Positions 16,052 through 28,448 of a stretch of 37,704 bases of DNA are shown here, piece by piece (positions within the stretch are counted from its first letter, which is position 1; every line of letters starts with the position of its first letter). The translations under genes were made by a program, and so were the position numbers. The notes below the pieces were generated by a model. The model was not told where the DNA came from. It did not search any database and saw only the letters and a list, made by a program, of their open reading frames with translations. Source of the stretch: Lachnospiraceae bacterium (GTDB lineage: Bacteria > Bacillota > Clostridia > Lachnospirales > Lachnospiraceae); the NCBI GenBank assembly GCA_024696005.1, contig JAILHF010000015.1, positions 1 to 37,704 on the forward strand, read 5' to 3'.

Positions 16052-18472
16052 TCACTTCGGCTTCAAAAGCCACCACCACAGTGAGGAGGGCAGGATCGCC
16101 AGAAGGATGTTGCAGAGATAAGCAATGAAGAGCACGCCCGCGAAGACCGCCCCAAACATCCCGGCCGCCGCATGGGAAAGGACCGAGCCTTCCAGACGCT
16201 CCATCGGCTTCTTCCGGCATGCCAACACAAGAAGCGGCAGGCCGATGAAGAAAAGGACGAGCCCCTCCGCAAGCCGCGGCGGATGATAGCTCAGCTCAAG
16301 GACATGGCTTCCCTCGCCCGGCAGGCGGATCCCGAGAAGGCCGCCCGGCAATGACAATGTCTGCGCCTTTTCTCCGTCGATCCGGCAGTCCCATCCTTCA
16401 GGTCCCGGAATGGGCAGGAAAAGAATGCGTCCCGCATCCGATACCGCAAGGTCCGCGCGCAGTCCGTGCCCGCTTAAACTTATGCCGCTTAAGGGTGCTT
16501 CCGGCGAAAGCGCGAGGATCTCATCCGGGGCGCAATGCAGCAGTTTTCCGTCATGATCTGCTTCCAGACAAAGCTCACCGCGGCGGATCCCCAGAAAGGC
16601 AATCCTTGCGCCACCGACCGTGATGGTCTCACCGCCAATCCGTATCGTCACCTCTTCGGCGAGCGGATTGTCATAATAGAGCAGCTGCTCATCTTCAAAA
16701 CAGAGCGTCTGCTCATCTCCCGCTTTGAGAACGGCAGTCCCAAACAGCTCCGTTCCCGTCAGCGCACGGGCATATGCCGCCTGGTATTCCGCCGCCCCGT
16801 CACATGAGGCCGAAAGCGCTTCCTCGTCCAGCAAAAGCCCGAAAGGCAGACGCAGTCTGCTCTCCGCAATGGTAAGGCCATCTGTTTCTTCGCAGTTCTC
16901 ATACAGCCTCTCATCCGGCTGCTCATCCATCAGAACGTAACGTCCTCCGAGCAGGGCGTCGGAAAAGAAGGTCCCGCCCTTCCCGTAGATCGCGGATCCC
17001 GCATGATAATAGCCCAGCTTGTCGCAAAGATCGGGGAGCGAAGCCGGAACGATATGCACCCAGTTCTTCAGGGACGGCACGGCCGATACCAGCGGGAAAT
17101 TCAATTGCAGGCTGTCCGTCTTGTCCAGATAGCGCTGCGTCTTGTCATTTCCGATGCTGCGGTCATAAAGCGCAAGCTCGCTCCCGTACAGCCCCTCCTT
17201 GGAACGGTGCATGCCAAGCTCCGCCCGCAGCATGCGCTGCTTTCCGAGCGCCGTCATCCCCACAAAGGACATCAGCAAAACGAGCACCCCGAGGATCGCC
17301 CGGAGACGCGGTGAAAGCGTGATCTTTTCGGGAAGCAGCTTTGCCAGAAGCAACAGTCCCACACAGAGATACAGATAGCCGCCGCGAAGGGGGAAGCAGA
17401 GATAGACCCCGCCCTGCCAGAAATAATGGCAGCTTTCAAGCGCGACGGGCAGCAGGAGCAGAAGCTCCGTCAGCAGGAGCGCAAGCACAAAACGGTCCGG
17501 TTTCTTTTTCCCGATGCGCCGTCCGATCAAGAGCAGCAGGGATGCCAGCGCCGCATTCAGAGCGGTATAACTCAATATCGCCTTTTCCGCATCATAGCTG
17601 TGGTCCGGATCCGCATTGGAACGGAGCATCTCCTTGAGCGTGTACAGAACGGAATTGTTCATCCTTGCCGAACCCGTTACCTGTGTGACCGCAGGAAGCA
17701 GGATCGGTGCCGCAATAAGGAATGCCAGAAGGCTGCAGATCCCCAGGCGAAAGACGGCGGCCCGGCGCTCTTTCGCGGAAAACTCCCCGCACAAAAGAAA
17801 CACGCCGGAGAACAGGATCAAAAAGATCACCAGCATGTAATCCTGCTGGACGCAGATCAGAAAAGCCGCCGCCAAAAGCAGGACATAAAGCAGGCGCCTG
17901 CTGACGTCACGCAGCAGACCAAGCAGCGCGTAAAGCAAAAACGGAAGAAGAATGGCCGGATCCAGCCATTGTGAGAAATAAAGATAATGAAAGGTCCAGC
18001 TGTTGCAGGCATAGAGCGCCGAGAGAAGGATCACCGGCAGCATTCCCGTCTCTTCGGGAAGCAGGCGTCTTAACAGAAAGCGGAAAGAAAACGCCATCAG
18101 CAAAAGACGCAGAAGCGCCATCCAGGAAGTGCTGTAAAGCACCGCGCTGCGCGGGATGAAAAGGTAGAGGACATGCAGGGGACTGAGCATCCCGAAATGA
18201 AGCACCGCGCCGGAAGGGTTGCAGCCCAGCGCCAGATCCCAGTCGAAAAAGAGCTCCTTCTTTCCGTGAAGAAGATCCCAGAGATAGTACAGCATCGGAA
18301 TGTGCTGGCGGTATCCGTCGTCCCCTTCGATCGTCAGCGTTCCGAACGGCCACTCCCCATGCAGATAAAAACAGATCGCAACGAGCAGAAAGACAAAGCA
18401 AAACAGCAGGACGCATTCAACAAGGCGTCTCGGCTTTCCCACGCGCCTTTCCTTCTCAGAGCTTGTTGCCAT
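16052..18472 (-). CDS. YfhO-like multispanning membrane protein
   Basis: An 806-residue protein with about 12 membrane helices in the first 430 residues, a soluble extracytoplasmic region (about 440-740) and final helices. The early loop IEGDDGYRQHIPMLYYLWDLL and the later QQDYMLVIFLILFSG match the YfhO family, GT-C-type membrane proteins linked in Firmicutes to glycosylation of lipoteichoic acid and other surface polymers. The acceptor and donor here are unknown. Two ATGs are possible, 18481 and 18472; AGGATT is close to the first, so I took the second, with moderate certainty. Either start overlaps the upstream PHP gene. It is the last gene of the cluster beginning at 24698. Confidence 0.82.
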   Translation of the reverse strand: MATSSEKERRVGKPRRLVECVLLFCFVFLLVAICFYLHGEWPFGTLTIEGDDGYRQHIPMLYYLWDLLHGKKELFFDWDLALGCNPSGAVLHFGMLSPLHVLYLFIPRSAVLYSTSWMALLRLLLMAFSFRFLLRRLLPEETGMLPVILLSALYACNSWTFHYLYFSQWLDPAILLPFLLYALLGLLRDVSRRLLYVLLLAAAFLICVQQDYMLVIFLILFSGVFLLCGEFSAKERRAAVFRLGICSLLAFLIAAPILLPAVTQVTGSARMNNSVLYTLKEMLRSNADPDHSYDAEKAILSYTALNAALASLLLLIGRRIGKKKPDRFVLALLLTELLLLLPVALESCHYFWQGGVYLCFPLRGGYLYLCVGLLLLAKLLPEKITLSPRLRAILGVLVLLMSFVGMTALGKQRMLRAELGMHRSKEGLYGSELALYDRSIGNDKTQRYLDKTDSLQLNFPLVSAVPSLKNWVHIVPASLPDLCDKLGYYHAGSAIYGKGGTFFSDALLGGRYVLMDEQPDERLYENCEETDGLTIAESRLRLPFGLLLDEEALSASCDGAAEYQAAYARALTGTELFGTAVLKAGDEQTLCFEDEQLLYYDNPLAEEVTIRIGGETITVGGARIAFLGIRRGELCLEADHDGKLLHCAPDEILALSPEAPLSGISLSGHGLRADLAVSDAGRILFLPIPGPEGWDCRIDGEKAQTLSLPGGLLGIRLPGEGSHVLELSYHPPRLAEGLVLFFIGLPLLVLACRKKPMERLEGSVLSHAAAGMFGAVFAGVLFIAYLCNILLAILPSSLWWWLLKPK

Positions 18473-19211
18473 GGCGGTCATAATCCTGTGCGCCGTCGGT
18501 CAGAAGATACATTTCATCGCCCATGATCAGGGAAATGAAATCCTGCGGATCCTGAAGCGGCCTGGCCGTGCAGATCCCTCCGCCGAAAATGTTGGTGGAA
18601 TGCACATCCGATCCCGCCGTCATGGGCTTGTTATTGGCCCGCGCCAGTTCGATCGCCTGCGGGTTCCAGACATCACTCTTATGAGACATGCTCTTCGGGC
18701 TGGAATGCGTCGCGTTCACGCCTTCGATCCCGTCCGAATGCTCCGGGTAAAGACGCACTTCGGGAATGTAGAATTCTTCCCGGTAAGGATGTGCCTGCAC
18801 AACGATCCCGCCTCCGGAATGGATGATCTCCCTCTGTTCCGGTATCGTGGCATCGTGAAGCTCGGGATGATCCGCCATCCATTCGGGCGTGATCCCGTAG
18901 ATCAGGAACTCCGTTCCGTGGAAGCCGGACTCGTAGCCGTACCAGACCTTCAGGCCGTTTTCGTCTCCCCACTCCTTTGCATGCCGGTAGCCCAGCGCGA
19001 AAAGCTCCACCCACTCCCGCCAGGGAAGGCTGCGGTCCACTGCCGTATTTCCGCCCCAGGCATGATCGGTCACAAAGATCCCGTCATAACCGGCCTCCTT
19101 GCAGGCTCTCGCCATCTCCGCACCGGGGCACTTCCCGCAGGCACTGCCTTCCGAAGTATGAAGATGGGTCTCATACAAATAAGGAAAATCACTCCGTTTT
19201 ATCTTGCTCAT
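18456..19211 (-). CDS. PHP-domain metal-dependent phosphoesterase
   Basis: A 251-residue polymerase-and-histidinol-phosphatase (PHP) domain protein, cytoplasmic. The metal-binding motifs are ETHLHTSEGS, FVTDHAWGG, VVQAHPY and GSDVHS in the expected order. Substrates in this family range from histidinol phosphate to nucleotides and nucleic-acid ends, and none can be chosen here. Start: the ATG at 19211 has GCGGAGGAGCGGT in front, and the ATG 15 bp earlier is itself part of that site. The gene overlaps the end of the DUF1232 gene by 23 bp and the start of the YfhO-like gene by 17 bp. Confidence 0.88.
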   Translation of the reverse strand: MSKIKRSDFPYLYETHLHTSEGSACGKCPGAEMARACKEAGYDGIFVTDHAWGGNTAVDRSLPWREWVELFALGYRHAKEWGDENGLKVWYGYESGFHGTEFLIYGITPEWMADHPELHDATIPEQREIIHSGGGIVVQAHPYREEFYIPEVRLYPEHSDGIEGVNATHSSPKSMSHKSDVWNPQAIELARANNKPMTAGSDVHSTNIFGGGICTARPLQDPQDFISLIMGDEMYLLTDGAQDYDRHGNKL

Positions 19212-19671
19212 ACCGCTCCTCCGCATGCTGCTTTCTGTCTGCCTTCTGTTCTTCTTCCGCCGTTTTCTTCCGGTCCGTCTCTTTTCCCGAGCCGCTCCGG
19301 CGCATCTGTTTTTTCTTCCACTCCCGGTATTTCTTCAACTCGGAGGACACACCGCAATCCATGATGATGCTGACCACCAGGATGTCATCGATAAAGCCGG
19401 GCAGAAGCTCGAGCGGACAGACCACATAGAGCAGCGCACCCACGATGGCTGCCAGAAAGCGCTTCGGGATCGCAGTGTACTCTCCTTCCGCATAGTCATT
19501 TACCAGATCGATCATGTCCGAAAGGTCCTGCGCCATGGAACCCAGAACAGGCTTGTCACGGAACTTTTCCAGCCAGGCCTTTGCCCCTTCCGAAAACTTC
19601 CTCAGCTTCCCTTTATCCTCTGCCAGTTTTTCCGCTTCAGCGCGGATCTTTTTCTTCCGTAACAGATTCAT
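19189..19671 (-). CDS. YkvA-like DUF1232 protein
   Basis: About 160 residues. The central hydrophobic stretch FLAAIVGALLYVVCPLELLPGFIDDILVVSI is the DUF1232 signature (PxDllPxfxDD-like), a short membrane-associated domain of unknown function. The C-terminal 45 residues are highly charged (Lys/Glu/Arg). The ATG at 19671 forms an ATGA overlap with the stop of the YczE-like gene, matching the ATGA junction one gene upstream; another ATG at 19686 is possible. Function unknown. Confidence 0.8.
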   Translation of the reverse strand: MNLLRKKKIRAEAEKLAEDKGKLRKFSEGAKAWLEKFRDKPVLGSMAQDLSDMIDLVNDYAEGEYTAIPKRFLAAIVGALLYVVCPLELLPGFIDDILVVSIIMDCGVSSELKKYREWKKKQMRRSGSGKETDRKKTAEEEQKADRKQHAEERYEQDKTE

Positions 19672-20297
19672 CGTTTCTTCATCCACTTCCCGACCAGCGA
19701 GACAGCCGGTCCCAACAGAAAGACCATGAGCACATGCCCGATCCCGGGCAGCTTTCCGCAGAGTATCCCCACCACAACCGCCGTCCCGTCATACGCGATC
19801 CGCAGCAGAAAGAAGGGGATCTTCTTCAGCGGCTTATGGAGCAGCTGCGGGATCGCATCATAAGGAGACAGTCCCGCATCCGCATTCATGTATACGGCAG
19901 CCGCGATCACAAAGCAGAGCAGCGCCAGCGCAAAGATCACGGCGCGCATCGGCCATTCCGTAAAGAAGCGCTGCGGTATGATCTTATGCCAGAGAAAGCG
20001 GCAGAAATCGGCGATATAACCGATGCAGACCATGTTCATCACGGTTCCGGGACCGATGTATCTGCGCCCCCAGATCAGCACCGGTACAAACATCAACGCG
20101 TTCAGGATCAGTTCCCATGTCCCGAAGCTGATACCCAGGCGCTCCGAAAGCACTACGTTCATGAAAGTGAAGGGATCGGTCCCCAGATCCACTTCGATCA
20201 GAAAAGAAACAAATACTCCCATAAAGAAAATGCCCGTCGCCATGACCAGGCATTTCTTCAAGGGGTAACGTTCACAAAAGCGTTTCCATGCGTTCAT
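19668..20297 (-). CDS. YczE/YyaS/YitT-like membrane protein
   Basis: A 209-residue protein with about five membrane helices. The start, LVMATGIFFMGVFVSFLIEVDLGTDPF, and the later AAAVYMNADAGLSPYDAIP show the internally repeated 'Gly-x-ADLG-x-xP' pattern of the YczE family. Bacillus YczE influences surfactin synthesis by an unknown route; nothing more specific can be said here. The ATG overlaps the stop of the nucleoid-associated-protein gene (ATGA), suggesting translational coupling. No strong ribosome site is present. Confidence 0.82.
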   Translation of the reverse strand: MNAWKRFCERYPLKKCLVMATGIFFMGVFVSFLIEVDLGTDPFTFMNVVLSERLGISFGTWELILNALMFVPVLIWGRRYIGPGTVMNMVCIGYIADFCRFLWHKIIPQRFFTEWPMRAVIFALALLCFVIAAAVYMNADAGLSPYDAIPQLLHKPLKKIPFFLLRIAYDGTAVVVGILCGKLPGIGHVLMVFLLGPAVSLVGKWMKKR

Positions 20298-21283
20298 TTC
20301 AAAGTACCGTTCACGTCATGGATATAAATGCTCACCATTCCGTTCTCCTGCTTGTATTCAAAGATGTTCTTGTCTTCCAGGCACTCCACCGGCACCGAGA
20401 TCTCGATCCCGCTCTTGGTGACGATCTTCTGCTTTTTGGCCAGTGTCCTTCTGGTCTTCGGGCTCACCGGCATGGGGCTGTCCTGGATCTTGAGTTCCTC
20501 GCTGCGCTCTTCATAGCGCTCCTGCGCCTTCGGATTGTCCTCAAACAGCCTCTTCGGGATGCGGACCGGATTGATCTCGCCGTGCTCTTTGGCCTCTTCC
20601 GCAACGGCTTTCCGATAGGAAAAGACCTTGGCCGCAGCCTCATCCTCATAGCATTCCCGTATCGTGTCCAGGACCGCTTCCTGAATGCACTGGACCGTTT
20701 CCTTTTCCGACTTGTTCAGATCAAGCTGCAAAATGCGCTCTGCCATGTAATTGACGCTTTCTCCGTCGATCATGCAGCGCATGTCCGACATCCAGACCCG
20801 TCTCTCATAAACGTTGATGAAGAAATAATCATATTCCTTCTGGGTATGCGCGGGAAGCAGATGCACATCCTTGGTCCATACCACCTTGTCTCCCTTTTTC
20901 TCGCAAGCAAAGCGGCTTTGATAATTCAGCTTGAAGAAAGCGATATGCGGCTGCTCATTCACGGTGGCAAAGACAAAAAGGCCGCTGCCCGGCTGCATGC
21001 CGTAGGCGACCTTCAAGAGCTCGTGCATCTCGTCCGTGATCACATCCACGAAAGCATCAAAACCGTCCGCTTCAAGAGGCGTGATCTGTGCCAGGAAGGA
21101 GTCTTCCGCAAAACGGGCCTTCCCGGCACCGGTCTCGTCAAAATTGTGTGCAAAAAGCTGCAGGATATAGGCAAACATCTCCCCGTCCGGGTCGATCAGC
21201 CATTCATTATAATCCACATATGCTTTTGCGGCGTCTATGGAGCTGATAAAGCAACGCTCGATCTCGATCGCAGATCTGTTCAT
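20294..21283 (-). CDS. Nucleoid-associated protein (37-kDa NdpA/YejK family)
   Basis: A 329-residue soluble protein resembling the 37-kDa nucleoid-associated family (Pfam NA37) as it occurs in clostridia: an N-terminal alpha/beta region, a middle stretch around KLNYQSRFACEKKGDKVVW, and the C-terminal region with the RRTLAKKQKIVTKSGIEISVP strand. Proteins of this family co-purify with the nucleoid and their exact role is unsettled; some members are phage anti-defence or conjugation-linked factors. The ATG shares one base with the upstream TAA (TAATG) and the stop overlaps the next gene (ATGA). Family assignment is by overall look and is fairly confident; a DNA-binding role is inferred. Confidence 0.72.
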   Translation of the reverse strand: MNRSAIEIERCFISSIDAAKAYVDYNEWLIDPDGEMFAYILQLFAHNFDETGAGKARFAEDSFLAQITPLEADGFDAFVDVITDEMHELLKVAYGMQPGSGLFVFATVNEQPHIAFFKLNYQSRFACEKKGDKVVWTKDVHLLPAHTQKEYDYFFINVYERRVWMSDMRCMIDGESVNYMAERILQLDLNKSEKETVQCIQEAVLDTIRECYEDEAAAKVFSYRKAVAEEAKEHGEINPVRIPKRLFEDNPKAQERYEERSEELKIQDSPMPVSPKTRRTLAKKQKIVTKSGIEISVPVECLEDKNIFEYKQENGMVSIYIHDVNGTLK

Positions 21284-22242
21284 TATTCCGTCACCGTAAC
21301 ACTGATCTCGACCGTCTCACATCCCGTGCCGCTGACCGTAAGAGTGGTCTTGCCTTCCGATTTTCCTTCGATCGTGACCGCATCATCATAATCCTTGACG
21401 ATCTTCATGATCTTCTTGTCACCGGTCTCATATTCCAGGTAGAGGTTCTTCACTTCCATCTTCAGGTCTTCGTAGTTCTCCACGCGGATCGTGATCTCTT
21501 CGCCTTCTTCGATCTTGACCTTGGTCTTATCCAGCTCGATCTCCTTCTTCGGCCCGATGAAGCCTTTCAGGAAAAGAATGGCCACGCCGCCTCCGAGCAG
21601 AAGCAGAAGAACGATCACCAGGGCGATGATGATGCCCGCGCCGCCCTTCTTCTTGGCCGGTGCATTTGCTGCGGGAGCCGCCATGTTCTGCTGGGGCATT
21701 CCCATATTCTGCTGCGGCATCCCCATGTTCTGCTGCTGCATTCCCATGTTCTGCTGCGGCATCCCCGCATTCTGCTGGGGCATTCCCATGTTCTGCTGGG
21801 GCATTCCCGCATTCTGCTGCGGCATTCCGATGTTCTGCTGCGGCGGCATTCCCATGTTCTGCTGCGGCATCCCCATGTTCTGCTGCTGCGGCATCCCCAT
21901 GTTCTGCTGCTGCGGCATCCCCATGTTCTGCTGCGGCGGCATCCCCATGTTCTGCTGCTGCGGCATCCCCATGTTCTGCTGCTGCGGCATCCCCATGTTC
22001 TGCTGCTGCGGCGCCTCCATGCTCGGCTGCTGAGGCGCTTCCACACTCGGCTGCTGAGGCGCTTCCATGCTCGGCTGCTGAGGCGCTTCCATGCTCGGCT
22101 GCTGCGCTGCTTCCGCGCTCGGCTGCTGAGGCGCTTCCGCGCTCGGCTGCTGCGCTGCTTCCATGTTCAGCAGGGGCTGTACTCCCATATCCGGCTTGGG
22201 GGTATCCGTTCCGTTGTTGTTCTGCATATTCTGTCCGTCCAT
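21283..22242 (-). CDS. Gln/Met/Pro repeat protein with one membrane helix and a Big_2-like outer domain
   Basis: A 319-residue protein in three parts. Residues about 25-190 are low-complexity repeats, first EAPQQPSM-type octapeptides, then about 17 copies of GMPQQQNM/GMPQQNM. A KKK stop and a single membrane helix follow (about 204-226). The last 90 residues are a beta-rich domain (KVKIEEGEEITIRVENY ... GKSEGKTTLTVSGTG) reminiscent of bacterial Ig-like Big_2 folds and expected outside the cell. The repeat part would then be cytoplasmic. At DNA level the units are 21 or 24 bp. Start ATG follows GGGAGGAAGAAGAC. Function unknown; it lies directly downstream of the VirD4-like gene and shares a base with the next gene. 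Confidence 0.78.
   Translation of the reverse strand: MDGQNMQNNNGTDTPKPDMGVQPLLNMEAAQQPSAEAPQQPSAEAAQQPSMEAPQQPSMEAPQQPSVEAPQQPSMEAPQQQNMGMPQQQNMGMPQQQNMGMPPQQNMGMPQQQNMGMPQQQNMGMPQQNMGMPPQQNIGMPQQNAGMPQQNMGMPQQNAGMPQQNMGMQQQNMGMPQQNMGMPQQNMAAPAANAPAKKKGGAGIIIALVIVLLLLLGGGVAILFLKGFIGPKKEIELDKTKVKIEEGEEITIRVENYEDLKMEVKNLYLEYETGDKKIMKIVKDYDDAVTIEGKSEGKTTLTVSGTGCETVEISVTVTE
21680..22163. repeat. 21/24-bp coding tandem repeats
   Basis: On the plus strand units read like CCCATGTTCTGCTGCTGCGG CAT (24 bp) or the same with one fewer GCTG-type triplet (21 bp) between about 21680 and 22010. A second 24-bp family (CTCGGCTGCTGAGGCGCTTC-like) runs from about 22015 to 22163. High unit identity suggests recent expansion and likely length variation between strains. 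Confidence 0.8.
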
Positions 22243-22273
22243 GTCTTCTTCCTCCCTGATATCCTATCCTGAG

Positions 22274-22304
22274 AACAGCCCGCAGTAGCATACTCCGGGC
22301 TGTT
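22274..22304. other. Stem-loop between the VirD4-like gene and the repeat-protein gene
   Basis: AACAGCCCG (22274-22282) pairs with CGGGCTGTT (22296-22304) around a 13-nt loop. Neither side has a T-tract, so it is not a normal terminator. It may be an mRNA processing or stability element, or a partial attenuator, that sets different levels of the two halves of the cluster. Confidence 0.5.
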
Positions 22305-22326
22305 GTCACGCTTTATTATATTCCTT

Positions 22327-23823
22327 TTAGTCGGGATTTGCAAACGGTACGCCATCCGCGATGAACGCGAATTTCGTCGTAAACTTGATAACGTCAAACG
22401 TAGGCGGATGCGGGATCTCGATCGGCGGGATCGGCACAACCTTATAATTTGCGAATGCCGGATACTGATCGATATCCGCCATGTAGGTAATGAACGGATA
22501 TTCACGTCCGTGAAGGATCAGGCATTCACCCTTTTCCTTGCTGAAACGCTGCAGCTCGGTGACCGAGATCAGGCGGCGTTTTTCGGCTCCGCCCGGACCC
22601 CAGGCATCGATCTCGCCGCAGAGGAAACTCATCTCATTCAGCAGATCGCGCTCACGGGAAGTAAGGAAGATCCAGTTATCGCAGTTACCCTTGATGGTAT
22701 CGGCATCCTCTCCGTAACGGCCCTTCAGCTGATGCAGGGACTGCACCACCAGATAGAAGCGCATGTTACGGCTACGGGCTGCGGATATCATGGAAGGCAT
22801 ATCCGGAACCTTCGGGATATTACAGAACTCGTCCAGAACGAAATTGACACGGACCGGAAGGGAAAGGGAAGCCTGACGCTGTGCCTCACCGATCAGGATC
22901 TCGTATACCTGCTTGATGAACATCGTCACCAGGAAGTGGCAGGTCGTCTTTTCATCGGGGACGATAACATATACGGCCGTCTTTTCATGGCCGAACATGC
23001 GGATATCGAAAGTGTTATGACAGAGCATGTCCGTCAGACGCTTGTTCAGGTTGAAGATGGAGACCATTCCGTAAAGCACGCTCATGATGGAGGAAATGGT
23101 CTTTTCATTCTCACCCAGAAGCGTACCCTTGAACAGCATACCGATGGTATTCTGCGTGCTCATCTTGCCGGCCAGGGTCTTCAGGGATTCCAGTGCTGCC
23201 TGGGAGCAGAGTGCCGTAAGGGAACGCATGTTGACCGCGTTCTCCGCTGCTGCCGCTTCAAAGAGCAGATACATGTTTGCGGTCAGCAGTGTCTCTGCCA
23301 TCAACGGATACAGAAGGTCGGTGGTATTTTCCTTCTGACGTGCGGAAAGCGTAGCTGCAAGGTCGTTGACCAGGTTGTTGGCTTCGTCCTTACGTCCGGT
23401 ACGGTAGTACTCGTAAGGCAGTGCCAGGGGATCCCACATATCGCCGTAACCGATATCACGGAAGTTCAGGACCACGGTCTTGTAGCCGTGCTCCTTTGCA
23501 AAGCCGCCGGTACGCACATAAAGCTCGGCCTTGGGGTCGGTGACCACGAAGGACTCACCGGAACGGATGAACATGTTCAGGGTCGGCATGCAGAAGATAC
23601 GCGTCTTCTTGGAACCGGTAGCACCGAAGATCAGGGTATGCGTATCACGGCCGTCCAGATATGCGGTATGTCCGTCCGACATGATGGGCACCCCGCCGAC
23701 GGGATAGGTATCCGAGTCAATATCCACACGTGTGGCGGAACGCTGGACCTCTTCCACCGTTGCCCAACGTGTCGTTCCCATATTACTCTTATATCTTGTA
23801 TTTTTGATCTGACTGCTGCTCAT
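22327..23823 (-). CDS. Orphan TraG/VirD4-like ATPase without membrane segments
   Basis: A 498-residue protein of the type IV coupling-protein (TraG/TraD/VirD4) AAA+/RecA-like class. P-loop GATGSKKT at 67-74, followed by TRIFCMPTLNMFIRSGESFVVTDPKAELY, as in VirD4. Walker B is VNFVLDEFCNIP with D331/E332, and the later SMISAARSRNMRFYLVVQS is the family's conserved helix-strand. The P-loop has Lys where most coupling proteins have Gly. VirD4 proteins normally carry two N-terminal membrane helices; here the protein starts directly with a soluble MGTTRWATVEEV-type segment. No relaxase, VirB4 or other transfer gene is nearby. ATG follows AAGGAGGGTAGCA, 11 bp after the 287-aa gene. A DNA- or protein-pumping role is inferred only from the family. 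Confidence 0.87.
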   Translation of the reverse strand: MSSSQIKNTRYKSNMGTTRWATVEEVQRSATRVDIDSDTYPVGGVPIMSDGHTAYLDGRDTHTLIFGATGSKKTRIFCMPTLNMFIRSGESFVVTDPKAELYVRTGGFAKEHGYKTVVLNFRDIGYGDMWDPLALPYEYYRTGRKDEANNLVNDLAATLSARQKENTTDLLYPLMAETLLTANMYLLFEAAAAENAVNMRSLTALCSQAALESLKTLAGKMSTQNTIGMLFKGTLLGENEKTISSIMSVLYGMVSIFNLNKRLTDMLCHNTFDIRMFGHEKTAVYVIVPDEKTTCHFLVTMFIKQVYEILIGEAQRQASLSLPVRVNFVLDEFCNIPKVPDMPSMISAARSRNMRFYLVVQSLHQLKGRYGEDADTIKGNCDNWIFLTSRERDLLNEMSFLCGEIDAWGPGGAEKRRLISVTELQRFSKEKGECLILHGREYPFITYMADIDQYPAFANYKVVPIPPIEIPHPPTFDVIKFTTKFAFIADGVPFANPD

Positions 23824-23834
23824 TGCTACCCTCC

Positions 23835-24698
23835 TTAATAGTTGAACTGCGCCGTGAACACACGCGCATTATTCTGGATCAGCTCCGAAACATAGATACC
23901 GTCCGGGGCGTATGCGCTGATCATGTCCTTTGTTACGACGCCGTCATAAGGCGGTGCGGAAGTATATACGGAGTATACGATATCCGCTGCCAGACGATCC
24001 AGCATGTCATAGCCCGCAAAATACTGGTCTTCACGAAGCCGGTTCACGGTAGCAATGATCATTTCCTCGGAATCCCTGTCAAGATTCAGTCCAAACTCCG
24101 AGATCTCCTTGCGGATGTAATTGCAGAGTTCTTCACTGTCGGGCAGTTTCATCCGGATGACCTGGATGCGGAAGAAGAGCACCAGAAGCCTGGTCAGCTG
24201 CTCCACCGCCTGGGGATTGATGTTCGGGATCTGGAAGACGTAGGTGATGTCATCATCCATCGTCTGCAGGAACTTCATCACATCGATGAAATACGGATCC
24301 TCGAAATGTCCGACCCATTCGCTGACATCGATGGAGAGGATGCCATGGTATTCCGAACGGAACCCTGCGGCATCACGGATCTTCTCCGCCATCTTTTCGA
24401 TCTCGTGGCATTCCTTGTCGGCCGGAACATAATCCATAAAGTACTCGAGGCAACGGACGTTTCCGTAGAATGCCAGAAGATTTCCGGACGTGTACATGAA
24501 ATTCGTCAGAAGCATCAGGAGATTTTCCCGATCCAAACCGTTATCCGCTGCCCACAGCAGATTCGGCAAGACCAGTTTCTGTTTGGCATGGAATTTTTCC
24601 ACATTCTGACTCAGACGATTCCATTGATCAATGGTCTCTTTGAAGTCATCCATACCATGGAGAGCCATAATCTCTCTGTAATAGACGTTTTCGGCCAT
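23835..24698 (-). CDS. Unknown 287-aa partner protein of the VirD4-like ATPase
   Basis: Not recognised. The protein is 287 residues, soluble, acidic and apparently mostly helical, with no signal peptide or membrane helix. Segments such as GILSIDVSEWVGHFEDPYFIDVMKFL and the later YVFQIPNINPQAVEQLTRLLVLFFRIQVIRM, separated by charged stretches, suggest an alpha/beta core with a helical bundle, possibly a degenerate nucleotide-binding fold. Start: the ATG at 24698 has AAAGGTGGG before it; a GTG 12 bp upstream is weaker. It opens the cluster behind an extended -10 promoter and ends 11 bp before the VirD4-like gene, so the two are almost certainly co-expressed. A role as adaptor, regulator or helper of the ATPase is inference. 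Confidence 0.75.
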   Translation of the reverse strand: MAENVYYREIMALHGMDDFKETIDQWNRLSQNVEKFHAKQKLVLPNLLWAADNGLDRENLLMLLTNFMYTSGNLLAFYGNVRCLEYFMDYVPADKECHEIEKMAEKIRDAAGFRSEYHGILSIDVSEWVGHFEDPYFIDVMKFLQTMDDDITYVFQIPNINPQAVEQLTRLLVLFFRIQVIRMKLPDSEELCNYIRKEISEFGLNLDRDSEEMIIATVNRLREDQYFAGYDMLDRLAADIVYSVYTSAPPYDGVVTKDMISAYAPDGIYVSELIQNNARVFTAQFNY

Positions 24699-24762
24699 AG
24701 AACTACCCACCTTTCATCCTGATAGATTTTATGAGCGGAACTGGAAAACCCGCGCTTCACAT

Positions 24763-24861: not shown

Positions 24862-25743
24862 TCAGGGAATGATGGAATAGTCCGATACGGGGGAACCTTT
24901 TTCGATCTCGTCGGCCGTATGCACTACCGAACGGAAGAGCAGGCCTTCGTAGCGGAAATCGCCGTTCTGTATGGTCTGGTTATAGATATCGTGCCCAAGG
25001 CCTTCGTAATCGTCGCTGTTCATGTAGCACAGGATGGAGCGGATCGCCGCCTTCACGTAGTCGGAAGAGGACGCATTCCTGCCCTGTTCGACGACAAGCA
25101 CATCCTTCTCGCTGTTGCTGCCCTTCGAGACCTTCATCCGGATGCCGAGATCCGTATCGCCGCTGACGACCTTGTATTCGCCCTCGTTACCGGACGCTGC
25201 AAGCTGCATGTTATCCGCGGCGAGGGATGCGTTCAGCTTGTCGATCAGAGCCGTGCCGCTCAGCCCCTGTGCCCCCGTATTGCTGTCCGGCTGCTGCGCG
25301 GGAACGGGCGTCGGTGTCGGCGGCAGCGTGTTCGTTCCGCCGTTATCCGCCGCGGACTGATCCACCGGGATCTCGATGTGCACGTCCTCCGTCAGCGTCG
25401 GAAGAGCGGCCTCTCCCGTAACGGAAGGCTCTTCCTTCTGCTCTCCCGCGTCGGCACGCATGGGAGAGCCCTCCGGATATTCCAGGGTCCCGTTCTCGTA
25501 CATTTCGGAATAGGTCCGGACCATGTTGCCGGAGACAGCGATGCGGGGGTCGTTGAGGCAGTCATCGCAGATATAACGTGTAACGCCCAGCACATCGTAT
25601 TCCCCGCAGACGCGCTTTCGTCCGCAGAAGTCGCATACCTTGAACGAGCAGCCGCAAAGCGGAAGCACCAAAAAGAGCATCGCCAGAAGCGAGACCGTAT
25701 TTCCCAGGATGCGCTTGTGTTTTCCCGTACGTTTCATTTCCAT
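24862..25743 (-). CDS. Lipoprotein with a zinc-ribbon-like Cys cluster
   Basis: A 293-residue exported protein. After a basic start (MEMKRTGKHKR) and hydrophobic core, the lipobox LPLCGC puts the lipidated Cys at C32. Directly after it lies a CxxC cluster: CDFCGRKRVC (C37, C40, C46) and CDDC (C59, C62), which looks like a small zinc ribbon, odd for a protein on the outer face of the membrane. An acidic and Pro-rich linker (PPTPTPVPAQQP) leads to a C-terminal globular domain (about 165-293) I do not recognise. The start ATG is only about 8 nt beyond the T-tract of the tRNA-Arg terminator and has no ribosome site, so expression is unusual. Confidence 0.75.
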   Translation of the reverse strand: MEMKRTGKHKRILGNTVSLLAMLFLVLPLCGCSFKVCDFCGRKRVCGEYDVLGVTRYICDDCLNDPRIAVSGNMVRTYSEMYENGTLEYPEGSPMRADAGEQKEEPSVTGEAALPTLTEDVHIEIPVDQSAADNGGTNTLPPTPTPVPAQQPDSNTGAQGLSGTALIDKLNASLAADNMQLAASGNEGEYKVVSGDTDLGIRMKVSKGSNSEKDVLVVEQGRNASSSDYVKAAIRSILCYMNSDDYEGLGHDIYNQTIQNGDFRYEGLLFRSVVHTADEIEKGSPVSDYSIIP

Positions 25744-25782: not shown

Positions 25783-25788
25783 CCTGAG

Positions 25789-25862
25789 CGTGCGCGACAG
25801 GATTCGAACCCACGACCTTCTGGTCCGTAGCCAGACGCTCTATCCAGCTGAGCTACGCGCAC
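25789..25862 (-). tRNA. tRNA-Arg(ACG)
   Basis: Perfect 7-bp acceptor stem GTGCGCG/CGCGCAC with discriminator G; D-arm GCTC-AGCTGGATA-GAGC; anticodon arm TCTGG-CTACGGA-CCAGA giving anticodon ACG (read as inosine after deamination, decoding CGU/CGC/CGA); T-loop TTCGAAT. The 3' CCA is not encoded. Length 74 nt. Confidence 0.96.
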
Positions 25863-25946: not shown

Positions 25947-28448
25947 TTATTCTTCTGCCCAGATCCGCTTATTCAGCGCTTTATCCTGCTTTCCGATCAT
26001 GTCCAGGACTTCCTTGGCCTTCTTCTGTTCCTCGATCGCCTTGTTCTCGTCCCGGATCAGAAGCTCCAGGCTTCCGGAAATGGTATCGATGTTGTTCCGG
26101 AACTCTTCCACCATCTGGGCGGTACGCTGCTGGGCCACCTTGATGACTTCCTCTTTGTAGGCGATGAACTGCTCCACGGTCTGCGCATTGAAAGCCCGCT
26201 CCAGATCACGCTTGTAGGCCTTCTTGTCCATGGTGTTAAAGATCAGGATCGCCTTCTGCTCGTTGATGTAATCGTTCATCTTGAGTGCGCCGATCTCGGA
26301 AGGCGGGATCTCGGTATCGGAGATATTGGCGATCCTGCGGATCAGCCCCTCATCGATACCCTTATATTCCTTGATCTTCTTGACGATGATGCTCTTCAGC
26401 TCCTGCACCTGTGCCTGCAGGATGTCCCCGCGGACCTTCTTGTAATAGTCATCAATCTCCTGCAGATAACGGTTCAGTTCGCTGATGATGATGGTATTCT
26501 TCTTTTCGAAGATCTCGGGCTTCAGGGCGATCCACTGCATCTTGTCGGCCTGCCGGCTGGCAAGCTCCTGCCGCTTCTCGATCTCGCGCACCAGCTCCTT
26601 GATCTCCTCAACCTGCGTCTCCAGGCTGTCGTCGGTGATGCGGGCCACGAATTCCTCATGGGCGTTCTCGATGTCCTGCACCATGCTGGTCTTCATGATC
26701 TCGATGTTCTTTTCGATGTGCTCCTTCGACAGACGGGCCTGGTTTTCGATGGCCTCGTAGTCGACACGCACGAAGTCGATCAGGCCTTCGATGCCGTCAT
26801 ACAGGCCCTTGGCCTTCACGGCCAGGGCATATTTCTGGGCATACTTGATGATCTCCTGCTCGATGGCATACATCCCGGAATTGATATAGATCCTGTGGAT
26901 CACGCCCTCAAGGGAGGTATCGCAGGCAGAAGCCGCTTTCTCGCAATCCGCAAGAAGCTGCTTGGTCTCAAAATCGGCATCCGCCAGTTTATCATAGCGA
27001 TAGAAGATCCCGTTGTCGGAAGAGATCTTGGTAGGCTCCTCCGTGAAAGGATCGGTGGTAGGTTCGTTGTTGATCTCTTTTTTGTGGTTGGCGAGCCAGG
27101 TACGCTCGTCCTCCAGATCCACATTCCCTTCAATGGCCTTGCTGATGTAGGCCGCCTTGGACGATGCAAAGAACAGACGCGCGCTGGCGAGATCGATCTC
27201 CATGTCCTCCTCGTCGTAGATCTTGTCCTCCTCCTTGAGGCTGACCAGGACCTTCTTGTTCCGAAGGAGCTTCAGATCCTTGCTCGACTTGGTATCCGCC
27301 TGGTTGATCACATGGAAGGAACGGTCCAGGTCGATGGATACCCCTGCCTCGTTCCGGTTATTCTTGAACCCGCCGATCAGCTTGTAAAGGACCGAATTAC
27401 CGGTTCCTTCCATCTTGGTCGGCTCGTAGATCACGATCAGGATCGAATTGGTCTGCTGCTGCAGCGCTTCCTTCAGGATCAGGAGATGCTCGCTGGAATT
27501 GGAATCCGTTCCCGGCGTATCAAAGAAGGTGAAGTTGATGTTCCGGCACATGGGGATCGGGAAGCCCACTTCGATGATCCCGCCCACGTAACCGGAGCCG
27601 TCCTTCTGCTCCTGGTTGGGCACGTCGTTGAGCTTCTTTAAGATCCTGCAGAGCTGCTCGTGCTGCCTGAGCCCCAGCTCGGCAACAGCGGTAGCCTCCA
27701 GCTCCAGCTGATGGCGGATGTGTTCCTCCACATTTCCCTGGCCCCGGGCCACTTCAAACTGGTTGATCGCATCGTTCCAGTTGATCACCACATTGTCGGG
27801 ACGCGTATCCCTGGTGGTCCGGACCGCGAAAGAGACCCGCGGGGTCTTTTCGTTATGGATCTTGAACATCTTTGCCGTTTCGGAATTGATGCTCTCCGGA
27901 AGAATGCGCTTTCCGATGATGGCATTGATAAAAGTGGATTTCCCGGCGGAATAGGTTCCCACCAGGCAAAGGTTTACTTCATTGTTGTTCAGCGCTTCCT
28001 TCCGTTCCTCAAAGAGGGCCTTGCGCTTGTGGAAGAGCTGCTTGGTCTCGTTGTTCTTCAGCTCCTTCTCGAACTGTTCGATGGTCTCGTCACAGAATTC
28101 CAGTATCAGCTCGTAGATCTCGGATACACTGGGCAACTCGATGTATTTCACGATCTTAAAGATCTGTTTCCCTTTGGAATCGTTGTAATCCTGGATCTTT
28201 TTCTGCAGATCCTCGTAATCGATCTTGGTCCCCTTAAAGGTGATGTTCACATTATCTTTTGAAAACTGCTCCCAGATATCATCGAAGAAACGGCTTCCCT
28301 GATTCTGAAGCAGAAATTCCGTTCCGGGCCCGTACTTTTTAAGGCGCGGGCACTCGTCGTAGGGGATCTCCACAAACTCCCCCTTAAAGCGTCCGCAGAA
28401 GCGTACCTCCTTCTTAACGGGATGATACATGAGCATGAGTTCCTTCAT
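25947..28448 (-). CDS. Dynamin-like GTPase
   Basis: An 833-residue bacterial dynamin-family large GTPase. Residues about 1-130 are an extra N-terminal region. The GTPase domain follows: G1 GTYSAGKST (164-172), a switch-I Thr region around ESINSETAK, G3 DTPGTDS (from D310) and G4 NQAD. The remainder (about 490-833) is long, charged and helical with coiled-coil character (QVEEIKELVREIEKRQELASRQADKMQ). No clear membrane helix or hydrophobic paddle is visible. Bacterial dynamins act in membrane fusion, repair, cell division or phage resistance; the role here is unknown. The ATG lies 12 nt after GGAGG. It has its own promoter (28522-28550) and ends 10 bp before the tRNA promoter. Confidence 0.85.
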   Translation of the reverse strand: MKELMLMYHPVKKEVRFCGRFKGEFVEIPYDECPRLKKYGPGTEFLLQNQGSRFFDDIWEQFSKDNVNITFKGTKIDYEDLQKKIQDYNDSKGKQIFKIVKYIELPSVSEIYELILEFCDETIEQFEKELKNNETKQLFHKRKALFEERKEALNNNEVNLCLVGTYSAGKSTFINAIIGKRILPESINSETAKMFKIHNEKTPRVSFAVRTTRDTRPDNVVINWNDAINQFEVARGQGNVEEHIRHQLELEATAVAELGLRQHEQLCRILKKLNDVPNQEQKDGSGYVGGIIEVGFPIPMCRNINFTFFDTPGTDSNSSEHLLILKEALQQQTNSILIVIYEPTKMEGTGNSVLYKLIGGFKNNRNEAGVSIDLDRSFHVINQADTKSSKDLKLLRNKKVLVSLKEEDKIYDEEDMEIDLASARLFFASSKAAYISKAIEGNVDLEDERTWLANHKKEINNEPTTDPFTEEPTKISSDNGIFYRYDKLADADFETKQLLADCEKAASACDTSLEGVIHRIYINSGMYAIEQEIIKYAQKYALAVKAKGLYDGIEGLIDFVRVDYEAIENQARLSKEHIEKNIEIMKTSMVQDIENAHEEFVARITDDSLETQVEEIKELVREIEKRQELASRQADKMQWIALKPEIFEKKNTIIISELNRYLQEIDDYYKKVRGDILQAQVQELKSIIVKKIKEYKGIDEGLIRRIANISDTEIPPSEIGALKMNDYINEQKAILIFNTMDKKAYKRDLERAFNAQTVEQFIAYKEEVIKVAQQRTAQMVEEFRNNIDTISGSLELLIRDENKAIEEQKKAKEVLDMIGKQDKALNKRIWAEE

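Follow-up and report, generated by a model that had tools for sequence, protein, structure and literature searches.

Here, we analysed a stretch of 37,704 nucleotides from a Lachnospiraceae bacterium (contig JAILHF010000015.1 of assembly GCA_024696005.1; the whole stretch is called the window below), in which a VirD4-like ATPase of 498 amino acids (aa; 22327..23823, minus strand) is encoded directly downstream of a 287-aa protein, P287 (23835..24698, minus strand). With a probability of about 0.5, these two proteins form a resident two-ATPase protein-remodelling complex which derives from a VirD4-ClpP protein-processing machine. The sequences support the near-constant pairing of the two genes, their core chromosomal status, the constraint on VirD4, the predicted AAA+ fold of P287 and the occurrence of an SKK-type P-loop together with P287; what goes beyond pairing, predicted fold, constraint and orphan status we infer.

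Scanning of genomes for VirD4 gave 58 loci; in 51 of them, P287 lies immediately upstream in the same orientation. Six of the remaining loci start at a contig edge and one, L073, carries a truncated, rearranged VirD4. The pairing was therefore observed in 51/52 assessable loci, with a median gap of 14 base pairs (bp); the gap of L046 is 27 bp when measured from the open reading frames (ORFs), the value of -1473 in the gap list being an artefact of a match running past the stop. P287 is present in 31/35 genomes of the genus, and in 21/23 of those of high quality. Wider out, the P287 family, counted together with its fusions, has a patchy distribution, with at least 14 of 299 family genomes and at least 12 of 391 class genomes, both lower bounds since the family scan was made with one sequence and the class scan scored up to six candidates per genome. 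The closest VirD4 relatives come from Lachnospiraceae, mostly ruminant-derived, and the pair extends to Oscillospiraceae and other Clostridia, where identity to the window is 48–62% for VirD4 and 23–33% for P287. A preliminary description of this DNA had proposed the 287-aa protein as a dedicated partner of the ATPase, and this core, near-constant pairing bears the proposal out.

Under the NCBI model, which labels it a conjugal transfer ATPase, the VirD4-like protein would pass for a sign of mobile DNA; its gene here, however, is chromosomal and core. The search for conjugation partners covered two profiles, PF03432 for relaxases and CD1110 for VirB4, on fragmentary contigs, other relaxase and VirB4 families lying outside its scope. 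Neither kind of protein was found among the 19 window proteins scanned, nor was either profile matched anywhere in the source genome (a 3.75-Mb assembly of 74 contigs, 99.94% complete). The 34 carrier genome entries searched represent 33 distinct genomes, G004 and G684 having identical match places and counting as one. PF03432 was matched in 12 of these 33, never on the contig with P287, and CD1110 exceeded its cut-off in 4/33, always on contigs other than that of the pair. The single sub-cut-off CD1110 match on a contig with the pair (G202:C169) falls on the VirD4 gene itself. Plasmids gave no match to P287 when its L057 member was the query, viral contigs gave none to the P287 profile, and all plasmid matches to VirD4 were below 60% identity. 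In a quick tree with some long branches, 33 sampled VirD4s of the pair grouped in a single clade, apart from 19 taken from conjugative elements and plasmids (Shimodaira–Hasegawa-like approximate likelihood ratio test, 97). Locus by locus, identity to the window was higher for VirD4 than for P287 (29/29), the lipoprotein described below (18/18), NA37 (14/14), the dynamin-like protein (19/19), PNP (16/16), ahcY (5/5) and, with one exception, a glycoside hydrolase (5/6). Since VirD4 is more conserved than nearly all of its neighbours, a resident function is indicated rather than a decaying integrative and conjugative element, a reading that we rejected also for the lack of PF03432 and CD1110 on contigs with the pair. 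We thus regard the VirD4-like ATPase as an orphan with a resident chromosomal function, as had been suggested before; within the reach of the two profiles and the fragmentary contigs, neither a relaxase or VirB4 gene beside the pair in relatives nor a loss of the pairing, the two outcomes named beforehand as contrary, was encountered.

The window protein has the ATPase core of its family (PF02534, E 5e-38; TraG-D_C, 7.5e-24; NCBIfam CD1115, 266.5 bits at a cut-off of 250). Its P-loop, GATGSKKT (23602..23625, minus strand), has Lys in place of the last P-loop Gly and does not fit the canonical GxxGxGK[ST]. The form GxTGSKK[ST] occurs in 46/47 distinct family contexts, the exception being one genome (L006/L077) with a canonical P-loop. 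Among distant relatives, the P-loops of L153 to L156 read GGSGSKKN, GETGSKKT, GSTASKKS and GETGSKKT, respectively. A KK P-loop was seen in none of the 28 readable cases among 30 CD1115-type loci and in none of the 27 readable among 29 phylum loci. Only 66 residues precede the P-loop of the window protein, and no hydrophobic stretch was seen in them when the sequence was read by eye; those CD1115 relatives that align from its start do so at residues 81–188 of their stop-to-stop frames. The protein thus appears to lack an N-terminal membrane domain, and the earlier suggestion of DNA handling at the membrane finds no support. As the partner is predicted to have an AAA+ fold and its relatives end in a tripeptide resembling a ClpP-docking motif, the substrate would be protein rather than DNA. 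A separate case is L073 (9656-18000), where the C-terminal half of a VirD4-family protein is fused to a membrane-like N-terminus beside genes that look by eye like type III CRISPR.

P287 begins at the ATG at 24698 (291 aa if the start is the GTG at 24710) and has no Pfam match at the cut-off. An AlphaFold2 model built with 40 aligned relatives was of high confidence (predicted local distance difference test (pLDDT) 90.2; predicted template modelling score 0.83), and Foldseek placed CbbX first (3syk, E 4.7e-9, template modelling score 0.59), followed by RuvB and clamp loaders. A weak holA match (0.0089) was also found, and the matching part of a fusion protein reached 4.8e-5. In place of the Walker A motif the window has the eroded ADNGLDRE (24525..24548, minus strand), where the alignment gives AKSGVGKT in L057; the motif is intact in 6 of 40 P287s (L050, L057, L063, L070, L076 and L077). 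The same domain also forms the N-terminal part of proteins of 600–800 aa, in which it is followed by an AAA+ module of the SpoVK/CbbX/EccA type (hhalign of P287 against these N-termini, E 1.4e-23). On the predicted model, P287 is thus an AAA+-fold protein whose ATP site is eroded in the window, and since its domain is fused elsewhere to an active AAA+, it may have an active ATPase as its partner either in cis or, as here, in trans.

A link to ClpP comes from a second orphan VirD4 family of about 420 aa. ClpP adjoins this VirD4 in 11/12 loci picked by frame size and in 17/17 short VirD4s among 30 matches fetched from 250 Lachnospiraceae genomes (11 of the 17 places overlap the earlier loci and 6 are new). 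Within the genus it adjoins 10/11, nine within 374 bp and one at 1,175 bp, the eleventh locus being cut by a contig end. The controls, which cover about 1.5 kb on each side of the profile match, had no adjacent ClpP in any of 30 CD1115 loci, 29 phylum loci, 3 plasmid loci and 13 longer CD1115-type matches. The source genome itself encodes, on contig C54 at 77540-78790 (L075, 8716-10800), an orphan VirD4-like ATPase of this second kind, with 427 aa and a canonical P-loop, immediately behind a ClpP gene. VirD4s of this type are patchy in the genus, where 16/35 genomes match the profile, some of these matches being CD1115-type. The tree position of one ClpP-linked VirD4 (L002) is unsure because of its long branch. 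The ClpP-VirD4 gene pair is widespread in Lachnospiraceae, sometimes in several copies.

Relatives of P287 itself also point to ClpP. Outside the window's clade, the protein ends in [IL]GF in 20/21 aligned sequences, the remaining one (L077) ending in PGF. Clp ATPases dock on ClpP through the tripeptide (L/I/V)-G-(F/L) (PMC8745299). A similar C-terminal tripeptide is present in 14/18 distinct fusions of P287 with an AAA+ module (strictly L/I/V-G-F/L in 12/18; three others are FGF or FGY), although that end belongs to another domain. The background was 1/84 among far ORFs (beyond 5.5 kb) and 4/130 among near ORFs (within 3 kb, at 22 non-clade loci), three of these four necessarily being fusions in the set. 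A ClpP profile built from ten loci was then run over the VirD4 loci, and ClpP was found to follow VirD4 directly in 5 of 30 non-clade loci, L050 and L063 being two of them; these 30 have at least 700 bp downstream, near-duplicates such as L048/L054 are counted, and L075 is left out as belonging to the other family. All five neighbours match Pfam CLP_protease. Four standalone P287 relatives from the class scan whose surroundings were retrieved (L153–L156) are all followed by an SKK-type VirD4, with ClpP next in three, which make up the rest of these five. ClpP also adjoins 3/18 distinct fusions, several of which have short flanks.

These observations are consistent with the following mechanism. 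P287 and VirD4 would be parts of one vertically inherited cytoplasmic complex, in which the VirD4-like protein acts as an ATP-driven ring and P287 as an AAA+-fold adaptor or gate, probably no longer binding ATP in the window lineage. In the ancestral machine, VirD4 would have unfolded proteins or fed them to a ClpP-type peptidase, and the C-terminal [IL]GF tail of P287 would have docked ClpP as the loops of ClpX do. The window's clade has lost the tail and the ATP site of P287 and has no adjacent ClpP gene, and we therefore propose that the window pair most probably serves to remodel or translocate proteins with no peptidase of its own, perhaps together with the upstream lipoprotein. More tentatively, and at rather less than even odds, a VirD4 ring may have replaced the Clp ATPases as ClpP motor in relatives, in one branch with the docking tail of P287 and in another as a bare VirD4-ClpP unit, the window pair being a derivative which shed the protease and kept motor and partner as a constrained remodelling complex. 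Should the link to ClpP hold, a pump of conjugation would have become the motor of a protease. This would add a new design to the ATP-dependent proteases, and what VirD4 rings translocate would become testable outside conjugation.

Several observations, however, weigh against a protein-remodelling complex of this origin. None of the 19 P287s of the window's clade has the [IL]GF tail (the window ends in TAQFNY; 23838..23861, minus strand), and ClpP is adjacent in 0/30 loci of this clade, so the ClpP part concerns ancestry and not the window locus. Even outside the clade, 25/30 loci have no adjacent ClpP. L154 and L156 have both P287 and ClpP but no tail motif, and L155 ends in MGL. The tail count does not represent 20 independent events because the P287s share descent, and in ClpX the tripeptide lies in a loop and not at the C-terminus (PMC8745299). 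The SKK P-loop itself could weaken hydrolysis. A KK P-loop (GNTGTKKT) is also present in the VirD4 of L171, which has no recognisable P287: the protein upstream is not a P287 relative by sequence. Finally, the pairs of L057, L062 and L076 lie among conflict-type genes, which fits other readings. As a separate observation, the protein preceding the KK-type VirD4 of L171 (4060-6674) is an unrelated one of 306 aa ending in FGF; despite its position, its sequence led us to reject it as a P287 relative.

The pair resembles several known systems in part. It shares the ATPase core with the VirD4/TraG type IV coupling proteins and exceeds the CD1115 cut-off, but it lacks their N-terminal extension, has the SKK P-loop and an adjoining P287, falls in a separate clade and lies on a contig without a PF03432 relaxase or CD1110 VirB4. 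The non-clade relatives recall ClpXP and ClpAP in having a ring ATPase, a partner that bears [IL]GF and, in a few cases, ClpP as a neighbour; unlike in those proteases, a VirD4-type protein takes the place of the Clp ATPase as motor, the tripeptide sits at the C-terminus, and in the window's clade both the tripeptide and the ClpP neighbour are missing. Among the CbbX/SpoVK/EccA group of AAA+ proteins, CbbX is nearest to the P287 model and the homologous domain is N-terminal in SpoVK-like fusions, whereas P287 stands alone and its ATP site is eroded in the window. HerA-NurA is a two-gene system of the HerA/FtsK superfamily, made of a ring ATPase and a nuclease partner. The window pair likewise joins a ring ATPase of the superfamily to a single dedicated partner, but this partner has an AAA+ fold and is not a nuclease, and no strong PADLOC match was obtained. 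What is new is the combination, which has no good match among PADLOC models and does not appear in the literature listings searched; the component folds are known. These listings (titles and abstract openings, with few subscription papers) named no VirD4-P287 or VirD4-ClpP unit, and a term count in PMC7159879 gave no mention of VirD4, TraG, RyR, SpoVK or CbbX.

The main rival is a conflict role, with the ring and its AAA+ partner serving as sensor or effector of an anti-phage or stress-signalling module, which we consider unlikely on balance. It draws on L062, where the genes alongside the pair encode a Card1-like nuclease (PF09002, 5.9e-8), a TIR-kinase (TIR_2, 3.5e-8; Pkinase, 1.5e-47) and a protein that matches RyR weakly (0.077), on L057 and L076, where this Card1-like cluster (c48) is also represented, on a STAND-like NTPase in L076 (under the cut-off), and on a gene named Card1-like by resemblance that adjoins the fusion of L090/L157. 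However, conflict genes were recognised in at least 3 of 22 non-clade loci, the rest being judged from family listings, and PADLOC found 2 CARF-nuclease members in 130 near ORFs against 1 CARF member in 84 far ORFs, no clear enrichment. With PADLOC 2.0.0, P287 had no match at E<=1 and VirD4 had only a weak mad8 match (2.6e-4) over part of its length; VirD4 is moreover core and slowly evolving in the genus. Quite unlikely is an export or DNA-handling motor at the membrane, in which a coupling-protein-like ring that lost its membrane domain would be anchored by a partner in the membrane, for instance the lipoprotein. Type IV coupling proteins without this domain are known, some of them relying on small membrane proteins (PMC7434980), and the lipoprotein gene lies upstream in 18 clade loci at more than 60% coverage. 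Yet the lipoprotein is expected outside the membrane and P287-VirD4 inside, it evolves fast (mean identity 43%) and was not found in non-clade loci, and the contig carries neither PF03432 nor CD1110.

It is also doubtful, and we think improbable, that the machine is still proteolytic in the window lineage through a ClpP encoded elsewhere and a different contact. The ancestral VirD4-ClpP architecture and the ClpP-VirD4 pair on contig C54 of the same genome would allow it; the tail motif is, however, absent from 19/19 clade members with no replacement motif identified, and VirD4s of the C54 type, in contrast to P287, have a patchy distribution within the genus. A remnant of an integrative element at tRNA-Arg has hardly any credibility: the block does follow a tRNA-Arg gene and the VirD4 family is conjugative by origin, but no 12-base stretch of the tRNA has a second copy in the window, VirD4 is core and strongly constrained, PF03432 and CD1110 are absent, and P287 is unmatched on plasmids and viral contigs. 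The protein-remodelling complex remains the reading we prefer.

As for the locus as a whole, the preliminary description had seen the pair as the head of an eight-gene cluster. The eight minus-strand ORFs (16052..24698) do have the places and sizes given there. The gap between P287 and VirD4 is 11 bp and holds a GGAGG stretch resembling a ribosome-binding site, the repeat gene and NA37 meet at TAATG, and NA37/YczE and YczE/DUF1232 meet at ATGA. The 84-bp gap after VirD4 contains a strong hairpin (22274..22304, minus strand; -26.2 kcal/mol, z -4.2), an energy reached in 0/200 shuffles; it is not among the terminators listed by the terminator scan. Of the family assignments, T4SS-DNA_transf (PF02534, the VirD4 match already given), NA37 (1.3e-14), YfhO (4e-59) and PHP_C (1.5e-5) exceeded the cut-off, whereas DUF1232 (0.0024) and the YczE-like ORF (DUF6198, 4.4e-4; YitT, 1.3e-3) gave matches under it only. 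The eight genes did not hold as a unit, since the conserved part is P287 with VirD4. NA37 occurs in 14 other loci and lies on the strand opposite to VirD4 in 11 of these, for which reason we rejected an eight-gene operon with this nucleoid-associated protein and see no support for a role of the latter. DUF1232 was found in one other locus (L045), a PHP protein with 30% identity likewise in just one (L049), and YczE and YfhO in none of the other VirD4 loci compared. The interpretation offered earlier is thus supported for an orphan resident ATPase with its dedicated partner and unsupported for the cluster, NA37 and DNA handling at the membrane. The repeat protein (21283-22242; PQQNMGM-type) has one apparent membrane helix, and its relative in L024 begins with a zinc-ribbon-like motif.

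A companion of the pair lies upstream and outside this eight-gene set: a lipoprotein gene (24862..25743, minus strand), whose product has a C4 zinc-ribbon motif directly after the lipobox. In much of the window's clade this gene joins the pair as a third member, the order often being tRNA-Arg, zinc-ribbon lipoprotein, P287, VirD4. The tRNA-Arg(acg) gene ahead of the block (25788..25862, minus strand; tRNA scan) was found in 19/27 clade loci scanned. The AlphaFold2 model of the lipoprotein (pLDDT 74.8) had no fold match in the PDB at E<=0.001, its C-terminal domain being confidently modelled nonetheless. In loci such as L018, the lipoprotein-P287-VirD4 block shares its strand with the repeat gene and NA37; compared with this arrangement, the block appears to be inverted in the window.

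For the ORFs near the non-clade pairs, the 25 of 126 Pfam families listed are those of ordinary chromosomal genes, a scope in which a single relaxase could have been missed, and enrichment in defence islands was rejected, as there was no clear near-versus-far excess. Operons in four Clostridia loci (L057, L062, L076, L157) combine genes, partly named by eye, for a Card1-like nuclease, for either a P287-AAA+ fusion or a STAND-like NTPase, for a protein weakly matching TrkA/RyR and for a TIR or TIR-kinase protein, with the P287-VirD4 pair in three. They may represent an undescribed conflict or signalling system. A dynamin-like GTPase gene with a weak LeoA match (25947-28448) is a neighbour of the block that is conserved across loci; its cluster comprises 20 loci, and it is usually convergent with the block.

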